64,000 nt of DNA from Muribaculaceae bacterium Zag1 (GTDB taxonomy: Bacteria; Bacteroidota; Bacteroidia; Bacteroidales; Muribaculaceae), in contig NWBJ01000136.1 of assembly GCA_002633115.1 (NCBI GenBank), positions 51,530 through 115,529 on the forward strand. The letters are read 5' to 3'. Made by a program: the position numbers and the translations under genes. Positions within the stretch are counted from its first letter, which is position 1. Every line of letters begins with the position of its first letter. Positions 4,367-18,914 of the stretch are shown here, piece by piece. Below the pieces are notes generated by a model. That model was not told where the DNA came from. It was given only the letters and a program-made list of their open reading frames with translations, and did no database searches.

Positions 4367-4388
4367 TACCATGGATGAAATTAACGGT

Positions 4389-5681
4389 ATGAAAATCCAA
4401 AAGATAAATATCAAGGACTTCAGATGCTTCGGTGAATTTTCCCTAAATCTCAAACCAGGCATAAACTTGCTGGTAGGCGACAACGCCTCTGGTAAGACAT
4501 CGCTGCTTAAGGCTTGCAAATATGCTATAAGCTGTTTCTTCAGCGGTTTCAGCGATGACAACACTGCATGGGTTTATCCCTTGACCAATGATTTTAGGCA
4601 ATCAGAGGTCGGTGGAGTCTTGTTACAAGAGAGACCTATAGAGATAGAATTCAGCCTATTGGGACTTGGTCTCCCCGATTCTCCACAATCTTTGGTAATG
4701 AAAAGCGTGAAAAACAGTCGCCCCTTGCTTACGCCACTTAAGGACCTTAAGCTAAATGCGACCAAGCTTAAGGAGGCATACACCAATGGCAATGGTCAGA
4801 CTGAGCCCCTACCTCTGATTGAATGTTTCACCACTGAGGATATTCATGTACGCCGCTCCATCAGCCAATCGAAATTCAAAGAGACTCGACAGAAGCCTTC
4901 TTTCGGGTATTACGAATGCTTGGAGGGCAATGGCTTCCTGCCATATTGGGAGAAGAGACTGCTAGTTCTCAAAGAGGAAGACCCTGGCAATCAGGAATTG
5001 GCAATTGTGACCGCCGCAATTGCCAAAGCGTTGGGCCCAGCTGGATGCGGAATAATTGATGGTATAGTGGTACGCCCCAATGCCGGGAAAGTTTGCTATA
5101 GGTTTACCGACGGGCGCATCGTCGATTCTGACAAGCTTTCAGATGGATATCGGCGTCTCGTCAACCTTGTAACCAACTTGGCCTTTAGATGCGCTATTCT
5201 CAATCGAGGCATCTACGGCTTGGAAGCTTGCCGGAATACACAGGGTGTAGCCATCATTGACGAAGTGGACTTGCATCTTCACCCATCGCTTCAGGCTCGG
5301 GTGCTCCCATCACTGACATTGGCATTTCCCAATCTGCAAATCATAGCAAGTTCGCACTCCCCCATGGTTATGTCAGGCGTTGAAACTACCGAGCGCGATC
5401 AAGTGCTTAAGCTCGATTATGTGCCCCCTGCCTATTCAGCCCAACCAATACGGACCTACGGAATGGATCTGTCTTCCATCTCAAGCTTATGGCTTGGTGT
5501 AGCCCCTCGCGAACAGTCGACGCAGCATCGGCTTGATCGCCTATATTCTCTACTGGACCAAGAGCGGTATGATGAATTGGCTATAGAGCTCGAAAGAGCA
5601 AAACGAGAATATGGGGATACGCTCCCTGAACTGGATCGTCTCCAGACTGAGTTGGACTTTGAGCGAGGATTAGAGAGATGA
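4389..5681 (+). CDS. ptuA: Septu defence ATPase PtuA (AAA_21/COG3950 type)
   Basis: 430 aa from the ATG at 4389; the track start at 4371 coincides with the predicted transcription start. It is an SMC/ABC-like ATPase: Walker A GDNASGKTS (about residues 30-38), ABC signature-like LSDGYRRL (about 248), Walker B with AIIDEVDLHLHP (about 287-298) and IASSHSPMV as the switch region. In known Septu systems PtuA oligomerises, senses infection and controls the nuclease PtuB. Its stop codon overlaps the start of the HNH gene (ATGA), giving a tight operon. The pairing with a TIGR02646-type HNH protein is what makes Septu the preferred call. Other OLD-like ATPase defence families are less likely. Confidence 0.8.
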   Translation: MKIQKINIKDFRCFGEFSLNLKPGINLLVGDNASGKTSLLKACKYAISCFFSGFSDDNTAWVYPLTNDFRQSEVGGVLLQERPIEIEFSLLGLGLPDSPQSLVMKSVKNSRPLLTPLKDLKLNATKLKEAYTNGNGQTEPLPLIECFTTEDIHVRRSISQSKFKETRQKPSFGYYECLEGNGFLPYWEKRLLVLKEEDPGNQELAIVTAAIAKALGPAGCGIIDGIVVRPNAGKVCYRFTDGRIVDSDKLSDGYRRLVNLVTNLAFRCAILNRGIYGLEACRNTQGVAIIDEVDLHLHPSLQARVLPSLTLAFPNLQIIASSHSPMVMSGVETTERDQVLKLDYVPPAYSAQPIRTYGMDLSSISSLWLGVAPREQSTQHRLDRLYSLLDQERYDELAIELERAKREYGDTLPELDRLQTELDFERGLER

Positions 5682-6364
5682 AGCTAATCATAAAGGGTCA
5701 GGAACCCAAAGAATGGGTGGAACATCGTCTCACTCAGGGTGCAGTCTACGAGCCAATTCAACCGCTTCGAAACGCTCTGTATGGAGAACAGGGAGGAATT
5801 TGCGCCTACTGTATGCGCCGCCTACAAACCGAGCCAGACCTGGCTCATATCCAGACTAACCGCATTGAACATCTCAGTCCTCAAAGTACCGACTTAACGC
5901 ATACGATGGAGTATACCAATATGGTGATGTGTTGCAGTGGATGGTCACCATCAATTGAGACAAGGGACGAATGTCATTGCGACAATAATCGCGGCAACCA
6001 ACCACTTTCTCTATCTCCTCTCGACCCTAAAGTTATAGATTCTCTGAGTTATGGCAAAGATGGATCTTTAATCTCTAGCAACCTCCTATGGAATCAAGAG
6101 ATTAACACAATTCTCAACCTTAATAACAGGTGGTTAAAATCTGCGCGTTCACAGGTTAGAGAAGGTGTCATCAATAGCCTTAACCGTAAGATTAAGAATA
6201 AGATTAAGAATAAGAAAGGATCTAAAGATTGGACTGAAAAAATCTTGCGAGAAGAACTTCAATCCTGGGAAAAACGGGATGCCACTGGGCTTTTCAAGCC
6301 ATATTCTGGCATGGTCATCACCCTATTGAGAAAATACCTCAGAAAGGCCCAAAGCCAACGGTAA
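5678..6364 (+). CDS. ptuB: Septu HNH endonuclease PtuB (TIGR02646 family)
   Basis: 228 aa, typical length. The N-terminal half carries the HNH core: CAYC (residues 42-45), RIEHLSPQ with the catalytic-type His65, YTNMVMCC (Asn81, Cys85-86) and ECHCDNNRG. The Cys/His arrangement suggests a structural zinc. The C-terminal half is basic and helical, including a repeated KIKNKIKNK run. In the family it cleaves nucleic acid when released by the partner ATPase. It is translationally coupled to ptuA by a 4-bp overlap. No reverse transcriptase is nearby, so this is not the retron-linked form. Confidence 0.8.
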   Translation: MKLIIKGQEPKEWVEHRLTQGAVYEPIQPLRNALYGEQGGICAYCMRRLQTEPDLAHIQTNRIEHLSPQSTDLTHTMEYTNMVMCCSGWSPSIETRDECHCDNNRGNQPLSLSPLDPKVIDSLSYGKDGSLISSNLLWNQEINTILNLNNRWLKSARSQVREGVINSLNRKIKNKIKNKKGSKDWTEKILREELQSWEKRDATGLFKPYSGMVITLLRKYLRKAQSQR

Positions 6365-6689: not shown

Positions 6690-7529
6690 TCAAAGGTCTT
6701 TTACTTCTTCGGAGGAGAGGCCGGTGTAGAGCATAATCTTTTCAATTGGCTCTCCGTTCTCTTTCATTATGCGGGCCATCTCTTTCTTGCTCTTGGCTTC
6801 GCCATGTGCCACGCCCTCAGCGTATGAGTCGTCGAGGGCTTCCTGCTCGTAGTAAACCGAGTCGAGGAAATCACGGTAGACCTTTTGCTCGGCCTTGGGC
6901 ATGGCGTCGTACTGGAGCCTGCTGCGCGCCTCGGGCAGCCCCGGCGCATCGTCGTCCTCGCCTATCTCGCCCGTCTTCAGGTAGTTCATCCACTGCTCCA
7001 GAGAGTTCTTGGTGACTTTCTTGTAGTCAAATTTTCCCACCCTCACCAGGTAGTAGACCGGGAAAATGTCTTCCGAAGAGAGGGTGATGAGAGTGTCCTG
7101 CTCGGTCTTGCGCTTGAAAGTGAATGTGTCGTGGGTGTGCACGCCCTTGAGCACCGCCTGGCCCTTGTACAGATAGTCCTTGCCTTGCAATCGGTCAATG
7201 CCGTAATCGGCGAAAGAGATGGTATAAGGGAGAAACGTATCGCCCTTGATGCGAAGGAATTTGGTGCCATCGGTAAGATAAGCCTTATATTCGCTGTGGG
7301 CGAAATCTACGTCGCCCATTATGTTGCCCTCGAAATAGAGGTTTGGATTCACGCACTACACATTCACCAACGCGCAAGGCGTGCCGTTGAGGTCCTTCCT
7401 GATCTTGTCCACAGTCAAGACATCCATGGTCAATTCCACAGATTTCACCGTCAGCTGCTGCGCGAAGCATAGCATGCAATAAAGGCAGGATTTGAGGAGC
7501 AAAAAGTATCTCACGACTAAATCTTTCAT
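6690..7529 (-). pseudogene. Chimeric pseudogene: PEGA-protein N-terminus fused to an Rpn nuclease C-terminus
   Basis: Reading from 7529 on the minus strand: an export signal and the start of a Bacteroidetes PEGA-type protein (AQQLTVKSVEL...NGTPCALVNV), then an in-frame TAG at 7358-7356, then the same protein continues (GNIMGDVDFA...TISFADYGIDRLQ). At about 7187 it switches to the Rpn-family sequence GKDYLYKGQAVLKGVH, nearly identical to the C-terminal two thirds of the intact gene at 9463-10350. The nuclease catalytic part is missing. It differs from the intact copy by lacking one GEAL tandem unit near the C-terminus. It is therefore a recombination product plus a nonsense mutation. The track ORF 6690-7352 is only its downstream part. 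Confidence 0.8.
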
Positions 7530-7543
7530 TGCTTTATTCTGAA

Positions 7544-8893
7544 CTATTCTTCGAATTTTACACTGGGCAACATAAAGCCCAGATAGAGAGGGAGGGTAAG
7601 CATGGGGCCTTCTTGACCGATGTTGTAATCGCCGAGCTTGATGGCGTGACGCACATGGTACTTTTCAGGATGCTTGAGGATAGTCTTGGCGCTCTTGGCG
7701 TTGCCGGTCTGCGCTTTGCACTCAACCAATACGCATTCGCCCTGGATTCTCAACAAGAAATCCACCTCCAAGCCTGTTTCCTTATGATAGTAGTATAGCT
7801 TCTTTCCGCTTTTGCCAAGGAAGTCTGCCATAAGATTTTCGAAGATTGCACCTTTATAGGTGTGTAGGTTACCCATGAGAATATCAGCCTGGGTTTCATC
7901 CTCAAGCATGCTGATCAGCAACCCAATGTCGGCCATGTACACTTTATATTCCGAATCGATGGCATTTCCATCAAGGGGCAATTCTGTGATGCTGACATTG
8001 TAGGCACGCCTAATTATAGCGGCATCTTCAATCCACTGCACAGCCCCTGCGTAGCGAGCAGAGGTTGCTCCCGTGCGCACGATTGAGTACTGAAATTTCT
8101 TATACTCGCGCCTCAATTGTTTTGGTATAGAATCAAAGCTTTCTCTAATCTTAGATTTGAGCTCCTTCGGGGCATACTTCAGCATATCGTCGCGATAACC
8201 ATTGACAATGCCGCGCTGCGCAAGCAACACCTGATTCATCTGCTTTGTGTCAAGATAAATGTTCACCGCTTCAGGCATGCCCCCCACTATGAGGTATCGC
8301 AGCAGAAGCTCCTTCATGCGCAAGTGGATGGGCGTGGGCACAGGGATTCTATTCTCCAAATTATGCCTAAGCAGCTGGAATACTTCCTCTGATATTCCAT
8401 TGGCCCATAAGAACTCTTCAAAGTCAAGCGGATACATATCTATTTGTGTCTCATACCCTATGGGGATGGAGACGGGCTTGTCTTCATTGTAACCTGAGAC
8501 ACCGAGCAACGAGCCCGTGGCGATGACATCGTATCTGCCATCAATGCAGAAAAACTTGAGGGCTGTGCGAGCTTGGGGACATTCCTGAATCTCATCGAGA
8601 ATGATGCATGTCCTGCCTGGCACAAAGCGCGTGTTTATATCCAACATTGTGGACAGATACATTATGATGTCATCGATTTTGAGAGACCCCTCGAAGGCTC
8701 GGCATAGCTCAGGCTGCTCTATGAAATTTATGCCTACCACATATTCGTAATTGGCCTCGGCGAATGCCGTTGCTGAGAAAGTCTTGCCGCACTGGCGGCA
8801 TCCCTTGATCACAAGAGGCTTGTGTTTGGGCGTCATTTTCCACTCTTTGAGAGTATCTTCTATCTTTCTTCTAAGCATATTGTTGCTAATCAA
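7544..8893 (-). CDS. AAA ATPase with C-terminal DUF4143 domain, second copy type
   Basis: 449 aa. Walker A GCRQCGKTF (about residues 30-38), Walker B CIILDEIQE (about 94-102), sensor strand VIATGSLLG, and a C-terminal DUF4143 domain with LEVDFLL...VLVECKA, a PD-(D/E)XK-like pattern. It has the same architecture as 303-1601 but is clearly diverged from it. Its promoter at 8989-9019 lies inside or above a three-copy 33-bp repeat array, so two repeat units are in the transcribed leader. It is convergent with no neighbour and flanked by pseudogenes on both sides. The biological role of this family is not established. Confidence 0.85.
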   Translation of the reverse strand: MISNNMLRRKIEDTLKEWKMTPKHKPLVIKGCRQCGKTFSATAFAEANYEYVVGINFIEQPELCRAFEGSLKIDDIIMYLSTMLDINTRFVPGRTCIILDEIQECPQARTALKFFCIDGRYDVIATGSLLGVSGYNEDKPVSIPIGYETQIDMYPLDFEEFLWANGISEEVFQLLRHNLENRIPVPTPIHLRMKELLLRYLIVGGMPEAVNIYLDTKQMNQVLLAQRGIVNGYRDDMLKYAPKELKSKIRESFDSIPKQLRREYKKFQYSIVRTGATSARYAGAVQWIEDAAIIRRAYNVSITELPLDGNAIDSEYKVYMADIGLLISMLEDETQADILMGNLHTYKGAIFENLMADFLGKSGKKLYYYHKETGLEVDFLLRIQGECVLVECKAQTGNAKSAKTILKHPEKYHVRHAIKLGDYNIGQEGPMLTLPLYLGFMLPSVKFEE

Positions 8894-8899
8894 TGGTTT

Positions 8900-8998
8900 G
8901 TCGATTTTCCAACCGACTTTTATGGTAATTATGTAGATTTTATAAGCGACTTTCAGGACCTATATGTCGATTTTCCAACCCACTTTTGCAAAGTTAGG
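8900..8998. repeat. Three-copy 33-bp repeat array before the second DUF4143 ATPase
   Basis: Units begin with GTCGATTTT/GTAGATTTT at 8900, 8933 and 8966, an exact 33-bp period. On the minus strand the best unit reads GTCGGTTGGAAAATCGAC, a 7-bp stem with a GGAA loop. The unit nearest the promoter contains the -7 box (8989-8996). Architecture parallels the 32-bp array at 155-242 although the sequences differ. Confidence 0.65.
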
Positions 8999-9019
8999 GA
9001 TAAATCGTGAATTCACAAA
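8989..9019 (-). promoter_or_regulatory. Promoter of the 7544-8893 ATPase
   Basis: On the minus strand TAACTTTG (8996-8989) lies 19 bp downstream of TTTG (9019-9016). The leader to the ATG at 8893 is about 90 nt and contains two repeat units. Confidence 0.65.
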
Positions 9020-9300
9020 ATCAATTTGACAATTTTTCAGATGTAAATAGCGAAACTTACCGCACCCAGTGCGGCTCACTCACCGAGGCCCAAATCGGAC
9101 TGCTCCGCGCCATCGCCAATGGCGAGCCTCAGCTCTCCTCTGCCGAGACCATCCGCAAATATCGCCTCAGAAGCTCCGCCGCTGTCAACAAAAACAGGCT
9201 CTCGCTCCGCAACTCCGACCTTATCGACAATTCCTCCAAGGAAGGCTGGGCCTTTCTTGACCCCATATTCAAGGCCTGGTTCCGCCAAAATTACCTGTAA
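9007..9300 (+). pseudogene. 3' fragment of an archaeal-type (ATPase_2) ATP-binding protein
   Basis: 97 codons from a GTG. From residue 24 on (SLTEAQIGLLRAIANGE...KYRLRSSAAVNKNR...FLDPIFKAWFRQ) it matches the C-terminal winged-helix end of ATPase_2 proteins, which are normally about 350-400 aa. The Walker motifs and the rest of the ATPase are absent. The first 23 codons look like unrelated sequence and overlap the divergent promoter of the 8893 gene. It ends exactly where palindrome copy B homology begins. A decayed remnant, probably not expressed as a functional protein. Confidence 0.65.
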
Positions 9301-9305
9301 AACAT

Positions 9306-9358
9306 CGTGAGTTGCGGCCAAATCGATTAATTTTTAATCGATTTGGCCGCAATTCACG
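9306..9358. repeat. Palindrome copy B
   Basis: CGTGAGTTGCGGCCAAATCG... pairs with its complement ending ...CAATTCACG: 25-bp arms with one mismatch around TTT. Near-identical to copy A (4185-4231). The spacer that follows (ggatttac-aactc) matches bases 25-45 of the window, so this copy belongs to the same composite unit as 1-145. Confidence 0.8.
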
Positions 9359-9403
9359 AAATTGAGAGTGATTTTCAAGGATTTACTAACTCCTTTTTTA
9401 TCT

Positions 9404-9462
9404 AACCAGATGGCGAGGAGCCATCGGGTCGGTTGGCTATTGCTGGCTCCTCCGTCAGCAGT
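9404..9462. repeat. M1 aminopeptidase 3'-end remnant with flipped hairpin loop
   Basis: 9404-9446 matches 48-90 (terminator hairpin GATGGC-GAGGA-GCCATC, stop codon and last codons of the M1 gene, minus orientation). At the CTGGC arm the sequence turns into CTCCTCCGTCAGCAG, the plus-orientation version found at 6670-6689. The intact form CTGGCGGAGGAGCCAG has the loop in the other direction, so the loop has been inverted. The intact Rpn gene follows at once. Confidence 0.7.
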
Positions 9463-10350
9463 TCAAAGGTCTTTTACTTCTTCGGAGGAGAGGCCGGTGT
9501 AGAGCATAATCTTTTCAATGGGCTCTCCGTTCTCTTTCATCATGCGGGCCATCTCTTTCTTGCTCTTCGCTTCGCCAAGAGCTTCGCCATGGGCCACGCC
9601 CTCAGCGTATGAGTCGTCGAGGGCTTCTTGCTCGTAGTAAACCGAGTCGAGGAAATCACGGTAGACCTTTTGCTCGGCCTTGGGCAGGGCGTCGTACTGG
9701 AGCCTGCTGCGCGCCTCGGGCAGCCCCGGCGCATCGTCGTCCTCGCCTATCTCGCCCGTCTTCAGGTAGTTCATCCACTGCTCCAGAGAGTTCTTGGTGA
9801 CTTTCTTGTAGTCAAATTTTCCCACCCTCACCAGGTAGTAGACCGGGAAAATGTCTTCCGAAGAGAGGGTGATGAGAGTGTCCTGCTCGGTCTTGCGCTT
9901 GAAAGTGAATGTGTCGTGGGTGTGCACGCCCTTGAGCACCGCCTGGCCCTTGTACAGATAGTCCTTGCCTTGGCCAAGGCCGAAATAAACAACCGATATT
10001 GTGTACACCTTGTGGATGTCCTTGTATGGATGGCCCAGGTCGACCTGCTCTTTCACGGTGTTGGCTGCCCCGAAGAGCATGCGCTCGATGAAGTCCATTT
10101 CCCTTATGGTCTGCACCTCGATTATCACCTTCTCGCCCTTGTCGTTGACCGCCCTTACGTCAACGCGGTTGAACTTCTGGTTGCTCTTCTCCTGGTTGCC
10201 CTCGCTCTCCTCAAGGCCAGTTATCTTCATGTTCTCGCCGGTGATGGCCGAGATAAAGCCCTCAAGGATAACAAAATTGGCCTTGTTGCGCAGTATGTGC
10301 TTGACCGCCCAGTCGAACCACACGTATTTCTTAACTTCTCTCTTAGCCAT
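9463..10350 (-). CDS. Rpn-family recombination-promoting nuclease (PD-(D/E)XK)
   Basis: 295 aa, full length for the PDDEXK_2/Rpn family. The N-terminus VKKYVWFDWAVKHILRN is typical. The nuclease core is RVDVRAVNDKGEKVIIEVQT (about residues 62-81), giving the D...ExQ/K catalytic pattern. The family includes E. coli RpnA-E, which cleave DNA and raise recA-independent recombination. The C-terminus has an acidic helix and a short GEAL/GEAK tandem stretch, then an LSSEEVKDL end. A promoter (TAATTTTG) lies 30 bp upstream. A 3' copy of this gene at 6690-7187 is fused to a PEGA gene. It may be active in reshuffling this locus; that is inference. Confidence 0.85.
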   Translation of the reverse strand: MAKREVKKYVWFDWAVKHILRNKANFVILEGFISAITGENMKITGLEESEGNQEKSNQKFNRVDVRAVNDKGEKVIIEVQTIREMDFIERMLFGAANTVKEQVDLGHPYKDIHKVYTISVVYFGLGQGKDYLYKGQAVLKGVHTHDTFTFKRKTEQDTLITLSSEDIFPVYYLVRVGKFDYKKVTKNSLEQWMNYLKTGEIGEDDDAPGLPEARSRLQYDALPKAEQKVYRDFLDSVYYEQEALDDSYAEGVAHGEALGEAKSKKEMARMMKENGEPIEKIMLYTGLSSEEVKDL

Positions 10351-10379
10351 AACTCAAACGCTTTAAATGGGTCACTTCG

Positions 10380-10387
10380 CAAAATTA
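10380..10387 (-). promoter_or_regulatory. Promoter -7 element of the Rpn gene
   Basis: Minus-strand TAATTTTG followed by CG, about 30 bp before the ATG at 10350. Confidence 0.55.
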
Positions 10388-10511
10388 CCAATTTTCCCCC
10401 ACAAATCCAAATCCCCATCGGAAATTGTTTCTGAGGTTAGAATAAACCACGTTTTCTAAACTCAACGCCCTCTTCTCTTCGACATAATAGTCCAAACATA
10501 TAAGTCAAGAA

Positions 10512-10538
10512 AACCCGAAGGCGAGAAGCCTTCGGGTT
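10512..10538 (-). terminator. Terminator of the M1 aminopeptidase operon
   Basis: AACCCGAAGGC-GAGAA-GCCTTCGGGTT, an 11-bp perfect stem, followed on the minus strand by TTTTCTT. It lies just after the M1 stop codon and is duplicated, in decayed form, at 48-75 and 9404-9430. Confidence 0.85.
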
Positions 10539-10544
10539 GGTTTG

Positions 10545-12896
10545 TTATTGCTGGCGGAGAATCCAGGACTCTTCGAGGAGTTTGCGGAGGAGGGGAGCGG
10601 GGAGGGTGGAGAGGGTTAGGTAATCATTGACGGCTTGGGCGGCTTGGGGGGAGGAGTGGCCAGAGAGGAGGGCGCGGAGCCATTGGGTGGGGAAGAAGAT
10701 GTCACCAGTGCGCTTTACCTCGGGGAGGAGCTCCAGGCCGAGGGGGAGGAAACGGTTGCTCTGCGGTTCGCGTGCCGGATGATTGAGCAGGGCAAGCATA
10801 GAGGCAGCCCATGGCTCGGTGCGGCGATTATTGGCATCCGCCAGGCTTAGCATCAGCGCATCCTGCTCATCAATCGATGGGGTGCAAGCTCGGCTCACAA
10901 AGTCAAACTCGGCGATGGCATCAGCATTGCTGAGACGCGCACGCTGCGCTGACAGAATCTCCTCAGTTTGCCCTGGCAGAATAATGGCCAAATGATAGGC
11001 CATAGCCATGAAATGGCGCTCGGTGAGCGACGGGTCAGAGCCATCCTGCCATATCGCAAAGATAGAATCCACCACTGACGGGGCCAGCGCATTGGTCGAC
11101 AGCCAGCGTACAGCCTTGGCGCGTTGCGCTGGCTCAGTGGCAGTAGCCTGCCATAGGGCTTCCTCAGCCTGGATGCGACCAGGGCCGCGCAATAATCCTA
11201 CCGATTTGGTGACCAAGTCCATAGGCATCAGTGCTGCGCTCTGGGACGAAAGTCCGCTAATCACATCAGATAACAATTGTGGCTCAGCCTTGCGGTCGCG
11301 ACACAGCGTCTCGTACAGGTTGCTCCAGGCAAGATAATGCTCGCGCTCTGAGTCAGTGGCATTGAGAGACTGGTCAATGCGCCTAAGCTTAGGCGAAAGT
11401 ATATGGCAAGCATAAGGCGCGCCAGCGATTGAATCAATAAATTGGGGAATCTCCGACCCACCGATTTGTTTGAAACTCTTCTCGCCCTTTACTGCGATGA
11501 CCGGCGCTCCGGCCTCATCGGCCCATACGTGACAGAACCCTTTGATATCCTTGCTGGGCGCATGGGCATCAAGGATATCAACCAAGTCGGACCATCGTGC
11601 ATTGCCATATTTGTAGCGCTGCAGATAGTCGCGCATGGCAGCGCGGAAAGCATCGCGACCCATCCGCTGCTCCACAGCGAGCATCATCATCGGGGCTTTG
11701 TCATATATTATATTGCCGTAAAGCAATCCAGCATCCTTAAGATTGACAAGCTCTTGACAGATAGGATGAGTGCCATCGGTGCGGTCGGTGTATAGGGCTG
11801 GAGTGCGATAAGTGCGCAAGAAATTGAGCGAAAGGGTCAAATCGTCGGGTGTATGGGCCATCGCCTTTTCAATTTTCTCGGCGAAATAATTAGCGAATAC
11901 CTCCTTGAGCCATACATCGTCGAACCACTGCATTGTCACGCAGTCGCCCCACCACAGATGGCTCACCTCGTGAGCGATTAGCTGTCGGCGATTGTGCAAT
12001 TCCTCCTCGGTAGGATTGGCTGGCAAGAAAATGCGCGAGGCATTAAGCTGTATGGCTCCGGGATGTTCCATGCCGCCAAACTGATACCCCGGCAGAAGCA
12101 CAAAGTTGACATTTGGGAAAGGGCACGGCATCCCGGTGTATGTCTCAATCCAACGGATGGCAAACTCAGCATCATCGGCCAAAGCGTCAATCTGTGCCAA
12201 ACGCTCAGGTTCGGTCTCGCGGCTATACACATTGATCAGCAAATCGTTGCGGGCAGCCAATGAATGAGTGTACTCTCCAGCTGCGAATGAGAATAGATAG
12301 GTGGGGATATGCTGCGCTGGCTCAAAGGTCACCACCTTGGTGCTGCGCCCCGAGCCGCACTCTTGGATGGGAGCTGGGCCCACTGCCTCCCAGTCGGCAG
12401 GGACTGTAAGAGTAAGCCTATACTCAGCCTTCAGGTCAGGCTGGTCAAAGCAGGGAAACACCGAGCGCGCTTTGTCGGGCACAAACAGCGTGTACATGTA
12501 ATCCTCGTTGCGATTGAGAGCATTGTCTGAGGATACAAACTTGACCGATATCGAGTTAGTCCCTACGCGCAGTGCATCCTCTGGGATAATGATATGCTCA
12601 TTTTGCCACTGCAACGGCCACGCTGAGCCATTGACAGTGATTATCGAATCCGCCTCCTCGCCGCAGTAATCAAGCTGCAACTCACCCAGGCCAGAGAGCG
12701 AGAATTCGAGCGTGAGAGCACCCTCGACTGGCTCGGCCAACTTTATAGGCACATTGAATGACAAGTCATAGACAACATCACTGATGCGTTGCGCCCTGTC
12801 TTGAGCCATCTCGCGCTCAACGCCCTCGATGGCTTCTGCACCATAAGTCCACAATCCTATGCAGCTCAGAGCGGCTGCCAACAGTATATTTTTCAT
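10545..12896 (-). CDS. Exported M1-family zinc aminopeptidase
   Basis: 783 aa with a signal peptide (residues 1-20, ending TYGAEA). The M1 signature is present: GGMEHPGA substrate-binding loop and HEVSHLWWGD (zinc ligands His, His, near residue 309), with the third ligand in the downstream WLKEVFANYF helix. The family removes N-terminal residues from peptides; here it acts in the periplasm or at the outer membrane. The C-terminal half is a long helical region. It is the last gene of the minus-strand operon and overlaps the upstream RyR gene by 4 bp (ATGA). Its 3' end has been copied several times into the neighbouring island. Confidence 0.9.
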   Translation of the reverse strand: MKNILLAAALSCIGLWTYGAEAIEGVEREMAQDRAQRISDVVYDLSFNVPIKLAEPVEGALTLEFSLSGLGELQLDYCGEEADSIITVNGSAWPLQWQNEHIIIPEDALRVGTNSISVKFVSSDNALNRNEDYMYTLFVPDKARSVFPCFDQPDLKAEYRLTLTVPADWEAVGPAPIQECGSGRSTKVVTFEPAQHIPTYLFSFAAGEYTHSLAARNDLLINVYSRETEPERLAQIDALADDAEFAIRWIETYTGMPCPFPNVNFVLLPGYQFGGMEHPGAIQLNASRIFLPANPTEEELHNRRQLIAHEVSHLWWGDCVTMQWFDDVWLKEVFANYFAEKIEKAMAHTPDDLTLSLNFLRTYRTPALYTDRTDGTHPICQELVNLKDAGLLYGNIIYDKAPMMMLAVEQRMGRDAFRAAMRDYLQRYKYGNARWSDLVDILDAHAPSKDIKGFCHVWADEAGAPVIAVKGEKSFKQIGGSEIPQFIDSIAGAPYACHILSPKLRRIDQSLNATDSEREHYLAWSNLYETLCRDRKAEPQLLSDVISGLSSQSAALMPMDLVTKSVGLLRGPGRIQAEEALWQATATEPAQRAKAVRWLSTNALAPSVVDSIFAIWQDGSDPSLTERHFMAMAYHLAIILPGQTEEILSAQRARLSNADAIAEFDFVSRACTPSIDEQDALMLSLADANNRRTEPWAASMLALLNHPAREPQSNRFLPLGLELLPEVKRTGDIFFPTQWLRALLSGHSSPQAAQAVNDYLTLSTLPAPLLRKLLEESWILRQQ

Positions 12897-15631
12897 TTTT
12901 CACTTTTCATTTTTGTTTCGCCTGTGGGCAACCCGGCGAGGTAAAGTCGCAGCGTGGTCTCCACCACGAGATAGTCAAACAGTTTGAAATCAGGATTGTA
13001 AGCGTAGCACGCTGGCTCATCTGGCGTAGGTACATAGACCGAAGCAAGAGATTCCTCGTCAAGCCCCTCCCAAGGTATCAAACAATTGTGCAGCTTGGTA
13101 AACTCATTGCAACCGTGCGCTTTGGCCTCGCCGTAGGGAGAATACCCCATCATCTCATGTGCGGCATTCCAACGAAGATGCTCGGTCTTGGCGAGGGTTG
13201 TCATCAGCTTCATCTCTGGGCTGTCGGGAGCCAAATCCTGATATGCCACCTTGCCTCCGTGATATAGGTCTCCACAGCGGCGCGAATCCAGATTCTTCAG
13301 AAACTTACAGGCAAAGTCATTGACATCGCCCATCTTTTGCTGCGCGAGAGTTCGTTCGAGCAAGCGCAGCTTTGTAGCGGCATGCAATGCGTTGGCCAAG
13401 TCTTGCGACTCAGAGCGGCGTAGCTTGCTCATATTCTTCCAAGTCGGCGAGGATTCCTCTGGCGGATTAATGATGAAGCGGACATTGCCGTCTTTGCTCT
13501 TGTCATACTCATGCGTCAACTCATCGGGCTTAAGCTTTCGGTAATACCCCATCAGGGTCAGTCGGCGTTGCTTCCAGTCGCCATTGTCAGACTCCCATCC
13601 CGGCTTTTGGCCCTCGCGATAGGTCTGGTAGTAGTCTATGGCCTGGCGTTGCAATCGGTCGTTGATGATCAGGTCGTAGGTGTAGATATCGGTCATCGAG
13701 CCGAAAGGCACAAGCACACGGTCGGCCGGAGCCGATGCGCCAAGCAGCATATTGTAATGGTCGGCTATGCTTTGCAGCAAAGCGGTGTTGGATTCGCCGT
13801 AGAGGCGCACATAGATCCTCAGCCCCTTGAGCGAAGCGCGTTTCCTCATACAGAGCTTCAACAACTCGATGCCGCAGTCCATATTGCGTTCGCTGTCACC
13901 AATGGCCACCACTGCGTAGTTGAGAGTTGGCGCAATCTTTTCGAGCAAATTATAATATTCTTGGCTGCCGGGAATATCCTTGAGCAGCTGGATATGCTCG
14001 GCTCCATCATTATTGGGTGAAAACACTGCCGGGGTAGAGGCGCGGAATTGCCCAGCGATATCATCCATCTCTTTGTCGATGGCGTAGGCGTAAAATGGAC
14101 TGCGCTTGGTCTCCTTATCATCGCTGCGGCTGTCGACAAAGGCGCTAAACTCATACAGAAAGCGCAGGGCATCCTGGCCCGTCTCGCCAAATCCAACTAT
14201 CAGGGCTGTGAAATCCGAGGCGGTAGTACCGGGCTTGTTGGGCGACAACTCAATCATATTGACCGGATGATGCTCGACATTCATTCTGAGCCAATCGATT
14301 GACAGGCGCGAATCATCAATCAGCTTAAGTGTGAGATTGGCCTTGGGCAGCGACTCCTCGAGCACACGCGATATGCTATCGGCGCGAGCCGAGTAGAAAA
14401 TCGTGGTCTCATATTCCTTGGCATCCATCGATGAGTCGTGGGCAAACTTAGTGGCCACTTTCACATTGTCCTGGCGGTCGGGACCAAGCAAGAATAGATA
14501 CAACTTGCTGCGGTTGTCCTTGCTGTCGGCATGGCCCAACTGCTCAAGCAGTTTGCCCACAGGCCTAAGACCCAAGCGCTCCCATATCGAACCCAGGGCA
14601 TCGGGCAGCTGAGCCACTGGCATATTGGCAACAGCGAGATAGGCGCCGGGGATAGCCTCGATGGCCTCGAATGTCTCGCGTCGATGGGTGAAGGCGTTGC
14701 CGATGGCCCCCATGCCGTCGGTCGATGATTCGCTGTTTGAGGCCAGGCTGTCGACAACGAATACTATGTTGGCTTTGGGGTCGCGCTTGTTGATGTCGCG
14801 AGCCAAAGCCGAGGAGGCTTGCGACAAGCCATAAAATATATACAGGTGATTATTGTCGGGGCGAATGCGCAGCGATTTAAGTCTGAGATATTGCTTTAGG
14901 CGGCTCACAAACAGGGCCACGAGCAAGAGGAAAGTCGATGCCGTTGCCGCCACTGTCAGGCCAGCTATCGCAGCGCGCATCACTGGCAATGCTCTGATGC
15001 TGTCAAACACATTGCCGTCAATGTTCATCACAAACATGCCCAAGGCGCACAGCGAGCCGCGCCAGTCGACCTCGGCACCGGTGGTGGCGCCCACGCTGAG
15101 GGCCATGCTGTAGACGAGCCATCCCCAAGCCCAAATCAGAGCCATCGAGCTGCACAGCAGCGCTGCGGGCGTTTGCGGAGTGCGGCGCGGGCCCAGCCAA
15201 CGCCACAAAGTGACGATGAAGGACAAGAGCGCCGTGTTGAGGGCAAAAATAGGCAGAGCGTTCCAAAAATCGCCGAGGCGGGGGTTATAGAAGGCAATAT
15301 CGGCCCCAAACAAAATGCAAGCAATCAGCACCAAGATGATGAATATAGTTTGGCCCTTGGAGCGCCCTAAGCTCCAAGCCATAGCGCGGAATCGACCGCT
15401 CAGATACAGGGCTAAGGCGATAAGCAGCCCTATGGCGTAAGGGTCGTCAAATCCGTTAGCTGCCGGACATTCGGCCCACACGGCCGAGGCTTGAATCATT
15501 TCGGGCGTGTCCGCGCCAATCCACAGCAGTGCAGTCAGCGCTGGCCATAATGGAGTGAATATCCACAGATAGCAGAACGCAGCTATCACAGTATCGGCGC
15601 AGATACGGAGAATGGTTTTAAGGTTTGGCAT
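12893..15631 (-). CDS. Multi-pass membrane protein with Rossmann-like and C-terminal RyR domains
   Basis: 912 aa. Residues 1-260 contain about six hydrophobic segments. Two nucleotide-binding-like regions follow: LYIFYGLSQASSALARDI (about 272-290) and ALIVGFGETGQDALRFL (about 480-496), the second a clear GxGxxG Rossmann/TrkA-N type strand-loop. Near the end, TEHLRWNAAHEMMGYSPYG and LHNCLIPWEGLDEE (about 815-860) match the RyR domain (EHxRWNA...PW). In prokaryotes RyR domains occur with TrkA-N and channel-like modules and are proposed to bind nucleotide-type ligands. It overlaps LAB_N by 14 bp upstream and M1 by 4 bp downstream. An ion channel or ligand-gated sensor is inferred; I know no assigned function. 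Confidence 0.75.
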   Translation of the reverse strand: MPNLKTILRICADTVIAAFCYLWIFTPLWPALTALLWIGADTPEMIQASAVWAECPAANGFDDPYAIGLLIALALYLSGRFRAMAWSLGRSKGQTIFIILVLIACILFGADIAFYNPRLGDFWNALPIFALNTALLSFIVTLWRWLGPRRTPQTPAALLCSSMALIWAWGWLVYSMALSVGATTGAEVDWRGSLCALGMFVMNIDGNVFDSIRALPVMRAAIAGLTVAATASTFLLLVALFVSRLKQYLRLKSLRIRPDNNHLYIFYGLSQASSALARDINKRDPKANIVFVVDSLASNSESSTDGMGAIGNAFTHRRETFEAIEAIPGAYLAVANMPVAQLPDALGSIWERLGLRPVGKLLEQLGHADSKDNRSKLYLFLLGPDRQDNVKVATKFAHDSSMDAKEYETTIFYSARADSISRVLEESLPKANLTLKLIDDSRLSIDWLRMNVEHHPVNMIELSPNKPGTTASDFTALIVGFGETGQDALRFLYEFSAFVDSRSDDKETKRSPFYAYAIDKEMDDIAGQFRASTPAVFSPNNDGAEHIQLLKDIPGSQEYYNLLEKIAPTLNYAVVAIGDSERNMDCGIELLKLCMRKRASLKGLRIYVRLYGESNTALLQSIADHYNMLLGASAPADRVLVPFGSMTDIYTYDLIINDRLQRQAIDYYQTYREGQKPGWESDNGDWKQRRLTLMGYYRKLKPDELTHEYDKSKDGNVRFIINPPEESSPTWKNMSKLRRSESQDLANALHAATKLRLLERTLAQQKMGDVNDFACKFLKNLDSRRCGDLYHGGKVAYQDLAPDSPEMKLMTTLAKTEHLRWNAAHEMMGYSPYGEAKAHGCNEFTKLHNCLIPWEGLDEESLASVYVPTPDEPACYAYNPDFKLFDYLVVETTLRLYLAGLPTGETKMKSEK

Positions 15632-16253
15632 ATTTTTCTGGATTTTGTTTTTGCCGAATCCCTATGATGAGATTTCGGATATAGGCTACTAATCCGCAAG
15701 CCTGGCCCAGGATTAGGACTGGGTCGAGGCGCACGATCGCATAGCTCACTATGATGATCGACCCCGCCAAACTGATGATCCAAAATCCTGGCGGAAGCAT
15801 AGATTCATGCTCAGCGCTGGAGTAGAGCCATTGGTATATAAATCTGAGAGTGAACAGCACTTGGCCAGCTGAGCCATACACCAACAGGCCGATGGGTATG
15901 TCTTCGTTGCGAAAAAATTCATTGACAAAAGTGCCAAAATTGTCAATGACAAATCCGATAGCCACTATGGGCGTCAGCACCAGCGCGGCTCGGAATATCC
16001 AAGGGATGCGGGGCCATACCCCCTTCATGTTGAGGTTCCACAGGTAGATGTAGTAGGATATGAATTGGCCGAGCACAATGGCGAAGTCGTGGCGCAGCCA
16101 GCCGTAGATGCACAGCAGGTAGGCTGCGGCAAGGCTCAGCTCCCAGAATATCGATGGCGAGAGCACGCGCTTAGCGCGCTCCGACATGATCCACTGCACC
16201 AGGATGCGCGCCGAGAACAGGGCTTGGGCCAAAAATCCAATTACATATATCAT
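15618..16253 (-). CDS. LAB_N (lipid-A-disaccharide synthase N-terminal) membrane protein
   Basis: 211 aa with about six membrane helices arranged as two LAB_N repeats: the first has AQALFSARILVQWIMSERAK, the second QVLFTLRFIYQWLYSSAEHE. This small integral membrane domain is found at the start of some LpxB proteins and as stand-alone proteins next to ArnC/ArnT-like genes. It is 15 bp downstream of the GT2 gene and overlaps the next gene by 14 bp. Context suggests a role in moving or modifying lipid-linked sugars at the inner membrane; no catalytic residues can be named. Confidence 0.8.
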   Translation of the reverse strand: MIYVIGFLAQALFSARILVQWIMSERAKRVLSPSIFWELSLAAAYLLCIYGWLRHDFAIVLGQFISYYIYLWNLNMKGVWPRIPWIFRAALVLTPIVAIGFVIDNFGTFVNEFFRNEDIPIGLLVYGSAGQVLFTLRFIYQWLYSSAEHESMLPPGFWIISLAGSIIIVSYAIVRLDPVLILGQACGLVAYIRNLIIGIRQKQNPEKYAKP

Positions 16254-16268: not shown

Positions 16269-16991
16269 CTATTTTAGATTCTGGTCGGCGATGGTGTAAT
16301 TGATATAGCGTTTCTTCATCCACCGATAGGCGAAGCAGTCCATAAAGGGCGCTACCAGGCGATTCCACAGGTGGTATTTGCTCACACCCGCTGTGCGCGG
16401 GAAATGCCGCACTGGCACTTGCTTGACCTTGCCGCCGTCTTGCAACAATATCAGCGCCGGCAAGAATCGATGCATGCCCGTAAAGAAAGGCACGCGCTTG
16501 GCATAGTCGGTGTGCATGATCTTGAGCGGGCAGCCGGTGTCCTGCACCCCGTCGTGGGTCATCATGCGGCGGAATCCGTTGGCGATTTTGCTCTGCAGCT
16601 TTTTGAATCCGGTATCCTTGCGATTGGCGCGTATTCCCATCACCAGAGGGTAATCCTTGATATAGTCAACGAGCAGGTTGAAATCCTCGGGAGCAGTCTG
16701 CAGGTCAGCATCGATGTATCCCACGTAAGGCGAGGTGGCATGGTCGATGCCAGCCTTCATGGCCGCACTCAGTCCGCGATTTTGGGCGAAGGAGATGTAG
16801 TAGAAATCCTTATTGCGGGCGCAGATGTCCTTGATGAGAGGCAGACTCTTGTCTTTAGAGCCATCATCGACAAAAAGAACGCAAGCCGAGCATTTGCATG
16901 TTGGCAAAAACTTGCCCAAGCGCTCTTCGAGGGCCGGCATGTTGTCTTCTTCGTTGTAGACAGGCACTATAATCGTGAGGTCGTAATTCAT
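16269..16991 (-). CDS. GT2 glycosyltransferase, ArnC/DPM1-like
   Basis: 240 aa. A GT-A fold with TIIVPVYNEEDNM at the N-terminus, VLFVDDGSKD and the DADLQ metal-binding motif (about residues 93-97), then HTDYAKRVPFF and the late FPRTAGVSKYHLWNR typical of polyprenyl-phosphate sugar transferases. No C-terminal membrane helices are present, so it is probably a soluble or peripheral enzyme that makes a polyprenyl-phosphate sugar. The ArnT-like gene upstream would then use that donor. Sugar identity cannot be read from sequence. Confidence 0.85.
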   Translation of the reverse strand: MNYDLTIIVPVYNEEDNMPALEERLGKFLPTCKCSACVLFVDDGSKDKSLPLIKDICARNKDFYYISFAQNRGLSAAMKAGIDHATSPYVGYIDADLQTAPEDFNLLVDYIKDYPLVMGIRANRKDTGFKKLQSKIANGFRRMMTHDGVQDTGCPLKIMHTDYAKRVPFFTGMHRFLPALILLQDGGKVKQVPVRHFPRTAGVSKYHLWNRLVAPFMDCFAYRWMKKRYINYTIADQNLK

Positions 16992-17044: not shown

Positions 17045-18709
17045 TTATTGGCGAGGGGTGATTAAGTAGGCGTCATATAAAAATACGGGACTATGGCGCT
17101 TATTATTGCTTGGACGGCGGTTGTCGTCGTAAGTATCGATGTAGGCGCTGTCGGCATACTGCCATAGCTGAGCCGGCAGGTAGTTGCCAACAGGGCCATG
17201 AGTGAGTATCACAAATGGCATGAGGCGGCGCAGAGAGTCGGGCGCAGTCGAGGTCAAGGGCCGGATTTTGCGGTTGGCGGCGTAGACAAGCTCAATCCTC
17301 AGCGAATCCTGGGGCAATGAATAGAAAGGCACCCCCTGCAGGGCAGGTATCTGGCGCGTGGCCGCTATGCTATGCATCTCGGGGTTATTGATGATATTGC
17401 GGGTGCTGGGCATCACGCAACATTCGGCATAAACAAAGAGCATTGTTATGGCAACCACCATAGCAAGCGGTCTGAGCTTAATGGCTGACCATATCAGCCA
17501 TGCCGCAATGGCGGCGCATACCACAGTGAGCACTATCCATAGCGCCAAGGACATATAGCCCGGCTTAGTGGCAAACACCCATCCCAGGGCTGGGAGGGCC
17601 GCAACCACTGCCGACAAGAGGTAGGCATTGATGCGGAAACACACTCGGTCGGCCACTGTGCCTCGGGTATAAGAGGCGAATATGTCGCGCCAGTGCAATA
17701 TCAGGCAGCCCATCAGGTAGGCGGCCGGTATGAGTATTGGCAACAGGTAGCGGCTTTTCTTTTCGGGCAAGAACGACAACAGTATCAGAGACGCGAGCAT
17801 CCAAGCCAGGGAGAAAAGCCAAGGACGGGCAATCTTGCCAAAGTCGCGTTTCCAACTGCCAGTGACCGGCACCCAATAGCACATAGCGGTAATCAGCAGC
17901 AGCGACCAGCACCCGGTCTCGAGGAAGAATTTCCAATAGTACCACCATGGCCTAACGTTGCGATTGACCCACGAGCCCGACTCTTTCTCCACCACGGCTT
18001 GCAATGAATCAGAGTGGAGGAAATGAATCAGCCCATACCACCATCCGCCCACTACCAGGGCCACCACTATCATAGCTATCAGGGCCCACCATTTTCCTCG
18101 CATCGATGGGCGGTAAACTATCCAGAAAGAGATGAGGAATGGCAAGAACAAAGCATAGAGCGACACTGGGCCCTTGCTCATAATCGACAATCCCGTCATC
18201 AAGCCAGCAGCCAGCATGTTGAGCCAGGCTTTCTGGCCTGGTCCCTCCATCCAAGCTAAGGCGAAAAAGTAGATGCCGCCAAGCATGAAAGCATGGCAAT
18301 AGATGTCCCACGAGGCTGTGCGTCCCATCAGCACCACATTGTAGCATGTACACAGCAGCAACGTGGGCATCAGCGGGTCAATTTTAAGCACTCGGCGAGC
18401 CATCTTCCAGAAGAAGAACACCATCAGCAGAGCCGCCACAGCCGCCATTGAGCGCTGCATGGCTATGCTGTCGGGCCGGAGGATTTCGGCTATGGCGGTG
18501 CACCAAGTGGGCAGGGGAGGCTTTTCGAGACGCAAGTCGCCATTCATAGTGGTCACGATCCAATGGTTATCGTAGACCATCTCGCGAGCAGTAATGATGT
18601 TGCGCGATTCCATGATGTCGGGGGCTATGGTGTCGTTGTTCACAAAGAAAGTGGCGATGCAGACGAGCACCACCGCAACTATCACTATCTTGCGTTGCAA
18701 TCCTTCCAT
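17045..18709 (-). CDS. ArnT-like inner-membrane glycosyltransferase (PMT_2/GT83)
   Basis: 554 aa from the ATG at 18709. The track start (18760) is wrong because a promoter (TAACTTTG, 18740-18733) lies inside it. The N-terminus has one helix, then an acidic loop with IAPDIMESRNIITAREM and LEKPPLPTWCTAI, the pattern of ArnT/PMT enzymes (Asp/Glu in the first periplasmic loop). About 11-12 membrane helices follow and a soluble periplasmic C-terminal domain of about 120 residues. Family members transfer a sugar from a polyprenyl phosphate to lipid A or another acceptor on the periplasmic side. It is the first gene of the operon with GT2 and LAB_N. Confidence 0.85.
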   Translation of the reverse strand: MEGLQRKIVIVAVVLVCIATFFVNNDTIAPDIMESRNIITAREMVYDNHWIVTTMNGDLRLEKPPLPTWCTAIAEILRPDSIAMQRSMAAVAALLMVFFFWKMARRVLKIDPLMPTLLLCTCYNVVLMGRTASWDIYCHAFMLGGIYFFALAWMEGPGQKAWLNMLAAGLMTGLSIMSKGPVSLYALFLPFLISFWIVYRPSMRGKWWALIAMIVVALVVGGWWYGLIHFLHSDSLQAVVEKESGSWVNRNVRPWWYYWKFFLETGCWSLLLITAMCYWVPVTGSWKRDFGKIARPWLFSLAWMLASLILLSFLPEKKSRYLLPILIPAAYLMGCLILHWRDIFASYTRGTVADRVCFRINAYLLSAVVAALPALGWVFATKPGYMSLALWIVLTVVCAAIAAWLIWSAIKLRPLAMVVAITMLFVYAECCVMPSTRNIINNPEMHSIAATRQIPALQGVPFYSLPQDSLRIELVYAANRKIRPLTSTAPDSLRRLMPFVILTHGPVGNYLPAQLWQYADSAYIDTYDDNRRPSNNKRHSPVFLYDAYLITPRQ

Positions 18710-18732
18710 TTCTTTAAGCCTGATTGGAACTG

Positions 18733-18740
18733 CAAAGTTA
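18733..18740 (-). promoter_or_regulatory. Promoter of the ArnT-GT2-LAB_N-RyR-M1 operon
   Basis: Minus-strand TAACTTTG followed by C, 24 bp above the ATG at 18709. It fixes the start codon of the ArnT-like gene. Confidence 0.7.
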
Positions 18741-18914
18741 CTGAAAAAAAGCGTACTCACCGCTCAATAATGAATAAAAAAGATTAAGAAGTGTGGTCAA
18801 AAGGGAGGGTAAAATAGTCTGAAAAGCGTCACTATTCGACCAATTGGCAAAAATTATGGAATAAATGGGTATTATTTAGGTTACAGTCACAATCACCAAT
18901 TAAATGAAAATCCG

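Follow-up and report, generated by a model that had tools for sequence, protein, structure and literature searches.

A Bacteroidales membrane protein that joins RCK-type domains to a RyR domain: a candidate nucleotide-gated channel, linked in many relatives to TIR genes

What might a bacterial membrane protein with a C-terminal RyR domain sense, and what would it do in response, when its gene lies in an operon together with glycosyltransferase and peptidase genes? The question is raised by a gene in a stretch of 64,000 nucleotides from Muribaculaceae bacterium Zag1 (GenBank assembly GCA_002633115.1, contig NWBJ01000136.1, positions 51,530 to 115,529), here called the window. An initial annotation described the product as a 912-aa protein with about six N-terminal helices, a Rossmann/TrkA-N-like GFGETG motif and a RyR domain, encoded between a LAB_N gene and an exported aminopeptidase gene, and proposed a nucleotide-gated channel or envelope-stress sensor acting with lipid A modification. 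The description held good throughout; of the proposal, the nucleotide-gated channel gained support and the lipid A part did not. The reading we favour, held with somewhat more belief than doubt and based on sequence comparison and structure prediction, is that of an RCK-type channel gated by an ADP-ribose-family nucleotide, likely an effector of TIR signalling in the relatives. Since many of these relatives adjoin TIR genes, an ADP-ribose-type alarm nucleotide probably opens the pore, rather than the protein having a lipid A role. The gene and the parts of its product are as follows.

12893-15631, minus strand: gene of the RyR-domain membrane protein, 912 aa, ATG start, a confirmed open reading frame (ORF)
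14873-15169, minus strand: pore-like module, residues 155-253, placed by the AlphaFold model, the filter alignment and conservation
14237-14848, minus strand: RCK1-type Rossmann domain, residues 262-465, with a degenerate nucleotide motif, placed by AlphaFold and Foldseek
13562-14236, minus strand: RCK2-type Rossmann domain, residues 466-690, in which GFGETG (480-485) and D519 form a GxGxxG...D motif
12932-13219, minus strand: RyR (R12-type) domain, residues 805-900, with H818, W821, H848 and D886

As the sole query, the window protein gave no usable match in Pfam, NCBIfam, PADLOC or the PDB sequences. The alignment of its family, unlike these single-protein searches, did give usable matches, and the identification of the domains therefore rests on the relatives. 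Public genomes were scanned and yielded 153 of them; 79 loci were kept for neighbourhood counts, and 62 homologues were aligned for conservation, profile and AlphaFold work. Practically all of the 79 loci are titled Bacteroidales, and the three relative records titled Clostridium, Clostridiales or Lachnoclostridium bear names of metagenome-assembled genomes, which may be wrong. The family is patchy within the order, where 17 of 295 sampled genomes have a match, some of them partial. Beyond the order there is hardly any trace of it, with one weak partial match in the sample of the phylum, and a search of plasmids, phages and viral contigs found none.

The hydropathy profile has six hydrophobic segments N-terminal to residue 245. 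The AlphaFold model of the full protein, computed from the 62 homologues, has a mean predicted local distance difference test (pLDDT) score of 82 and a predicted template modelling (pTM) score of 0.78, with low confidence for residues 1-120; a core model of residues 150-690 reached a pLDDT of 86 and a pTM of 0.80. Helices span residues 2-38, 43-53, 64-88, 90-115, 122-146, 155-179, 185-201 and 216-252. In the monomer model, the last three of these form a pore-like module. Its outer helix (155-179) is followed by a short one (185-201), from which a loop of 14 residues leads to the inner helix (216-252); the latter is 37 residues long and continues into RCK1. In the filter region F200 is conserved and D205 mostly so. 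Behind the module come RCK1, then RCK2 and, after a long helix, the RyR domain. The family profile also matched two-pore channels and TRPV6 in its membrane part, but at E 0.1-1 these matches were non-significant and were left unused.

When the full model was compared with the PDB by Foldseek, the first 12 matches were all RCK/potassium channels (probability 0.99-1.00): GsuK, which came first, Slo1/BK, Slo2.2 and one entry titled just 'potassium channels'. With the core model the top three matches were GsuK (E 5e-8 to 3e-6); Slo1 and the LjCASTOR gating ring followed lower down, with many NAD-binding Rossmann enzymes in between. A viral fold library gave no significant match to the model. The glycines G480 and G485 and the aspartate D519 of the RCK2 motif are present in 62 of 62 homologues, and G482 in 51; among these relatives Pfam recognizes TrkA_N in 8 and NAD_binding_7 in 10. 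ADP and NAD+ activate GsuK, which carries GxGxxG...D/E in its RCK2 domain (PMC3510474). Judged from sequence and predicted structure, the window protein is very probably of the RCK type, and there is a good chance that it works as a channel.

The RyR domain could be confirmed through the relatives only, as the Pfam RyR model (PF02026) does not match the window protein alone even at E 10. The same model matches 38 of the 62 relatives weakly and scores two relatives above its curated cut-off, and the family profile finds the RyR domains of the PDB: the 6uhi chimera (E 4.7e-13), 3nrt from B. thetaiotaomicron (2.7e-6) and the R12 domain of human RyR3 (about 5e-4). In the phage protein RyDEP, ligands of the cyclic ADP-ribose (cADPR) type are bound by H75, W78, H100 and D117, of which H75 and D117 are the catalytic dyad (PMC13232231, a preprint). 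In canonical small RyR proteins from the family's loci the spacing of the ligand residues (3, 22, 17) is identical to that in RyDEP. When the channel family is aligned with these small proteins, the corresponding residues are H818, W821 and D886, found in all 62 homologues, and H848, found in 61. No other single observation says more about the ligand than these conserved residues, and it is fairly likely that the domain binds an ADP-ribose-family nucleotide.

The correspondence of H818 and D886 to the RyDEP dyad could also be taken to mean that the protein is not a channel but a membrane-anchored Rossmann/RyR receptor, which binds or degrades a nucleotide as a RyDEP-like hydrolase or sink; the absence of a known selectivity filter, described below, would agree with this. 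However, of a further eight RyR homologues from phages, six were found to bind cADPR isomers and not one to degrade them, so that binding without catalysis is the commoner case (PMC13232231). Furthermore, a short pore-like helix and a long inner helix joined directly to RCK1 follow the anatomy of channels. Such a receptor is quite improbable.

The gene neighbourhoods link the family to TIR proteins. A TIR gene is found in the flanks of 41 of the 79 loci, another RyR gene in 37, and one or the other in 50. In Prevotella ruminicola (L087) the channel gene occupies 7953-10295 and a TIR gene 10353-13346. The 1.02 Mb of flanking DNA contain 44 TIR genes compared to about 0.9 expected (about 0.45 for other RyR genes), the background being 39 of the same genomes, in whose roughly 116 Mb there are 103 TIR_2 genes and about 51 other RyR genes. 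The flanks were searched for TIR with something other than the Pfam model, and the relatives are not independent of each other; neither the difference in search nor kinship is a likely source of a forty-fold TIR excess. At 26 loci a TIR or RyR ORF lies at most 150 bp away on the same strand, and many of these ORFs overlap. Most of the neighbouring TIR domains keep an aromatic-x-x-x-E motif, which in bacterial TIR NADases contains the catalytic glutamate. The tree places the window protein and its 97%-identical twin from another genome (G006, locus L011) within a clade in which linkage to TIR or RyR genes is frequent among the other members.

Two further kinds of gene were seen at these loci. 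A second class of RyR protein, of about 315-375 aa, in which a Peptidase_C39_2-like domain is fused to a canonical RyR domain, occurs near channel and TIR genes:

L012:3708-4655: Peptidase_C39_2-like/RyR fusion protein
L040:6319-7314: Peptidase_C39_2-like/RyR fusion protein
L061:6584-7711: Peptidase_C39_2-like/RyR fusion protein

Directly after several channel genes there is a gene for a 185-aa protein resembling an extracytoplasmic function (ECF) sigma factor (L058:10282-10839, with similar genes in 10 loci), which has no Pfam match.

From these data we infer channel activity, ligand, ion, effector role and any pairing in the window genome in the following way. The gene product would be a single subunit of a ligand-gated ion channel, probably a tetramer, of GsuK/Slo-like build, in which the two RCK domains form a cytosolic gating ring and the R12-type RyR domain is a C-terminal addition. 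The RyR domain would bind 2'cADPR, 3'cADPR or linear ADP-ribose (ADPR), and the GxGxxG...D site of RCK2 would be a second nucleotide site, which may accept NAD+ or another adenine nucleotide. Binding of the ligand would move the ring and open the pore, dissipating ion gradients. For much of the family, the neighbouring TIR NADases would supply the signal and the channel would act on the membrane as the effector in a defence or stress circuit resembling Thoeris, while the separate small RyR proteins would bind and buffer the signal or clear it. We give this effector role an even chance. In the lineage of the window the gene would have left the TIR setting and be co-transcribed with an envelope-glycan operon; the window copy may respond to two distant TIR proteins or to general changes in ADPR and NAD+, and its dependence on TIR in this genome is doubtful.

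Several observations weigh against the proposed mechanism. Neither a TIR gene nor another RyR gene is near 29 of the 79 loci, that of the twin included, and the window locus likewise has no TIR gene and no other RyR gene nearby. The window genome contains only two TIR genes, both on other contigs, and no other RyR gene; the equivalent search was positive in 36 of 39 relatives' genomes. The copies in several Bacteroides species (L032, L035, L038 and L053) occupy one conserved site among housekeeping genes and have neither a TIR nor a RyR partner, a hint that they may serve a purpose other than defence. The K+ selectivity filter T-x-G-Y/F-G (TVGYG) is absent from 62 of 62 homologues in the filter alignment, in which the family has no filter of known selectivity either, and the protein is therefore not called a K+ channel. 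The global TM-scores to GsuK and Slo are at most about 0.5 because the domains are arranged differently; the matches therefore speak to the fold class and the order of domains rather than to a close relationship. Finally, not all RyR domains tested in the phage preprint bound signals (PMC13232231).

Part of this would be accounted for by a general NAD+/ADPR-responsive channel that serves ion or turgor homeostasis in the manner of GsuK, with TIR genes nearby only through location in defence islands. The loci lacking both partners fit such a channel, as do the window and Bacteroides copies amid ordinary genes; GsuK itself is NAD+/ADP-responsive, and the stand-alone copy of the window is under strong purifying selection (see below). 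However, the adjacent, often overlapping, same-strand TIR and RyR genes of 26 loci go beyond co-location in an island, and the patchy distribution is unlike that of a housekeeping channel. We regard a homeostasis channel as unlikely, though less so than the receptor discussed above.

The operon of the window contains, besides the gene under study, the following genes in the order of transcription.

17045-18760, minus strand: GT83/PMT_2 ArnT-like glycosyltransferase, the first operon gene
16269-16991, minus strand: GT2 glycosyltransferase (ArnC/PgfS-like)
15618-16253, minus strand: membrane protein with a double LAB_N domain, upstream of the channel gene
10545-12896, minus strand: exported M1 aminopeptidase, the last operon gene, downstream of the channel gene

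The channel gene is thus the fourth of five closely packed genes of the same direction (GT83-GT2-LAB_N-channel-M1). It starts inside the LAB_N gene, with an overlap of 14 nt, and its end overlaps the M1 gene by 4 nt. The LAB_N neighbour was identified by a domain match of E 1e-58, and the GT2, GT83/PMT_2 and M1 peptidase neighbours were likewise confirmed. The twin locus has the same gene order. Between the two channel genes the nonsynonymous divergence (dN) is 0.0145 and the synonymous divergence (dS) 0.375; because their ratio of 0.039 falls within the range of its neighbours (0.008-0.074), the window gene is a maintained, functional gene under strong purifying selection.

A tight operon with overlapping genes, kept in the twin at low dN/dS, speaks for an envelope-stress sensor or channel acting with lipid A modification, as was originally suggested, or with polyprenyl-glycan modification. 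However, the arrangement is found among the 79 loci only in the twin, and elsewhere in Bacteroidales LAB_N accompanies GT2 and often GT83 without a channel gene. The linkage to lipid A modification was dropped, and a role of this kind is very improbable. Of the two observations that together were to refute the original proposal, the first was made, since homologues do occur outside this neighbourhood, with TIR and RyR genes instead; the second was not, since a plausible pore and ligand site are retained. The M1 peptidase is present in two of 41 genomes of the genus, those of the window and its twin, and LAB_N in three of 41. These two genomes measure ~4.1-4.5 Mb, compared to 1.9-2.9 Mb in the rest of the genus sample.

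Elsewhere in the window there is a PtuA/PtuB (Septu) anti-phage pair at 4371-5681 and 5678-6364, plus strand (PADLOC E 9e-153 and 9e-54), which lies within a low-GC stretch (0.38-0.47 vs about 0.54). A PD-(D/E)XK (PDDEXK_2/Rpn-like) transposase-family gene is present in two near-identical copies on the minus strand, at 6690-7352 and 9463-10350, the first being shorter. An AAA_14/DUF4143 ATPase gene (7544-8893) is located between them.

Each known system resembles the channel family in part. GsuK and Slo/BK (PDB 4gx0, 4gx5, 8ghg), the best fold matches, share with the monomer model the succession of outer, short and inner helices, and with the protein two RCK domains and, in GsuK, the RCK2 motif; the window protein differs from them in its filter, its extra N-terminal helices and its C-terminal RyR domain, and the identity is about 12%. 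The R12 family (PF02026, with 3nrt, human RyR3 R12 and phage RyDEP) is matched significantly by the profile and in the four ligand residues, whereas the window protein has the core EHLRW in place of VHEVW, stays below the Pfam cut-off, has an insertion between H848 and D886 and is fused to an RCK channel. As in Thoeris, relatives pair a TIR gene with a membrane protein, whose domain type binds Thoeris signals in phage proteins. Unlike in Thoeris, Pfam and PADLOC find no SIR2-SLOG or Macro-TM effector domain, the relatives' TIR proteins are only weakly ThsB-like and no TIR gene lies near the window copy. The plant channels CASTOR/POLLUX (DMI1) likewise have two RCK domains after a pore whose filter is non-canonical, but the window protein has no Pfam match to that family and CASTOR has no RyR domain; the filter motif of CASTOR differs from that of the window family. 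The protein is classed neither as a K+ channel nor as Thoeris, because a defining feature of each was looked for and is absent: the K+ filter for the former and, for the latter, a TIR gene at the window locus as well as a known type of ThsA effector. What is distinctive is the combination of RCK-channel anatomy, a non-K+ filter, a RyR sensor and TIR linkage.

Among the papers searched, none on bacterial RyR channels was found; comparative-genomics work of 2015 on nucleotide-centred conflict systems may mention RyR domains. It is tentatively suggested, at somewhat less than even confidence, that this is an undescribed Bacteroidales channel family in which an R12 domain gates an RCK-type pore on TIR-made cyclic ADP-ribose signals, and hence a new type of TIR-immunity effector. 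If true, the family would unite TIR-made cADPR signals, the RyR domain, which according to a 2026 report binds them in phage proteins, and RCK-gated channels, three elements not previously known to meet. It would be a bacterial counterpart of the cADPR-controlled ryanodine receptor channels, and would offer a simple protein for the old question of whether cADPR acts directly on a channel through a RyR domain. For gut bacteria, it may be a candidate new effector of TIR-based phage defence.
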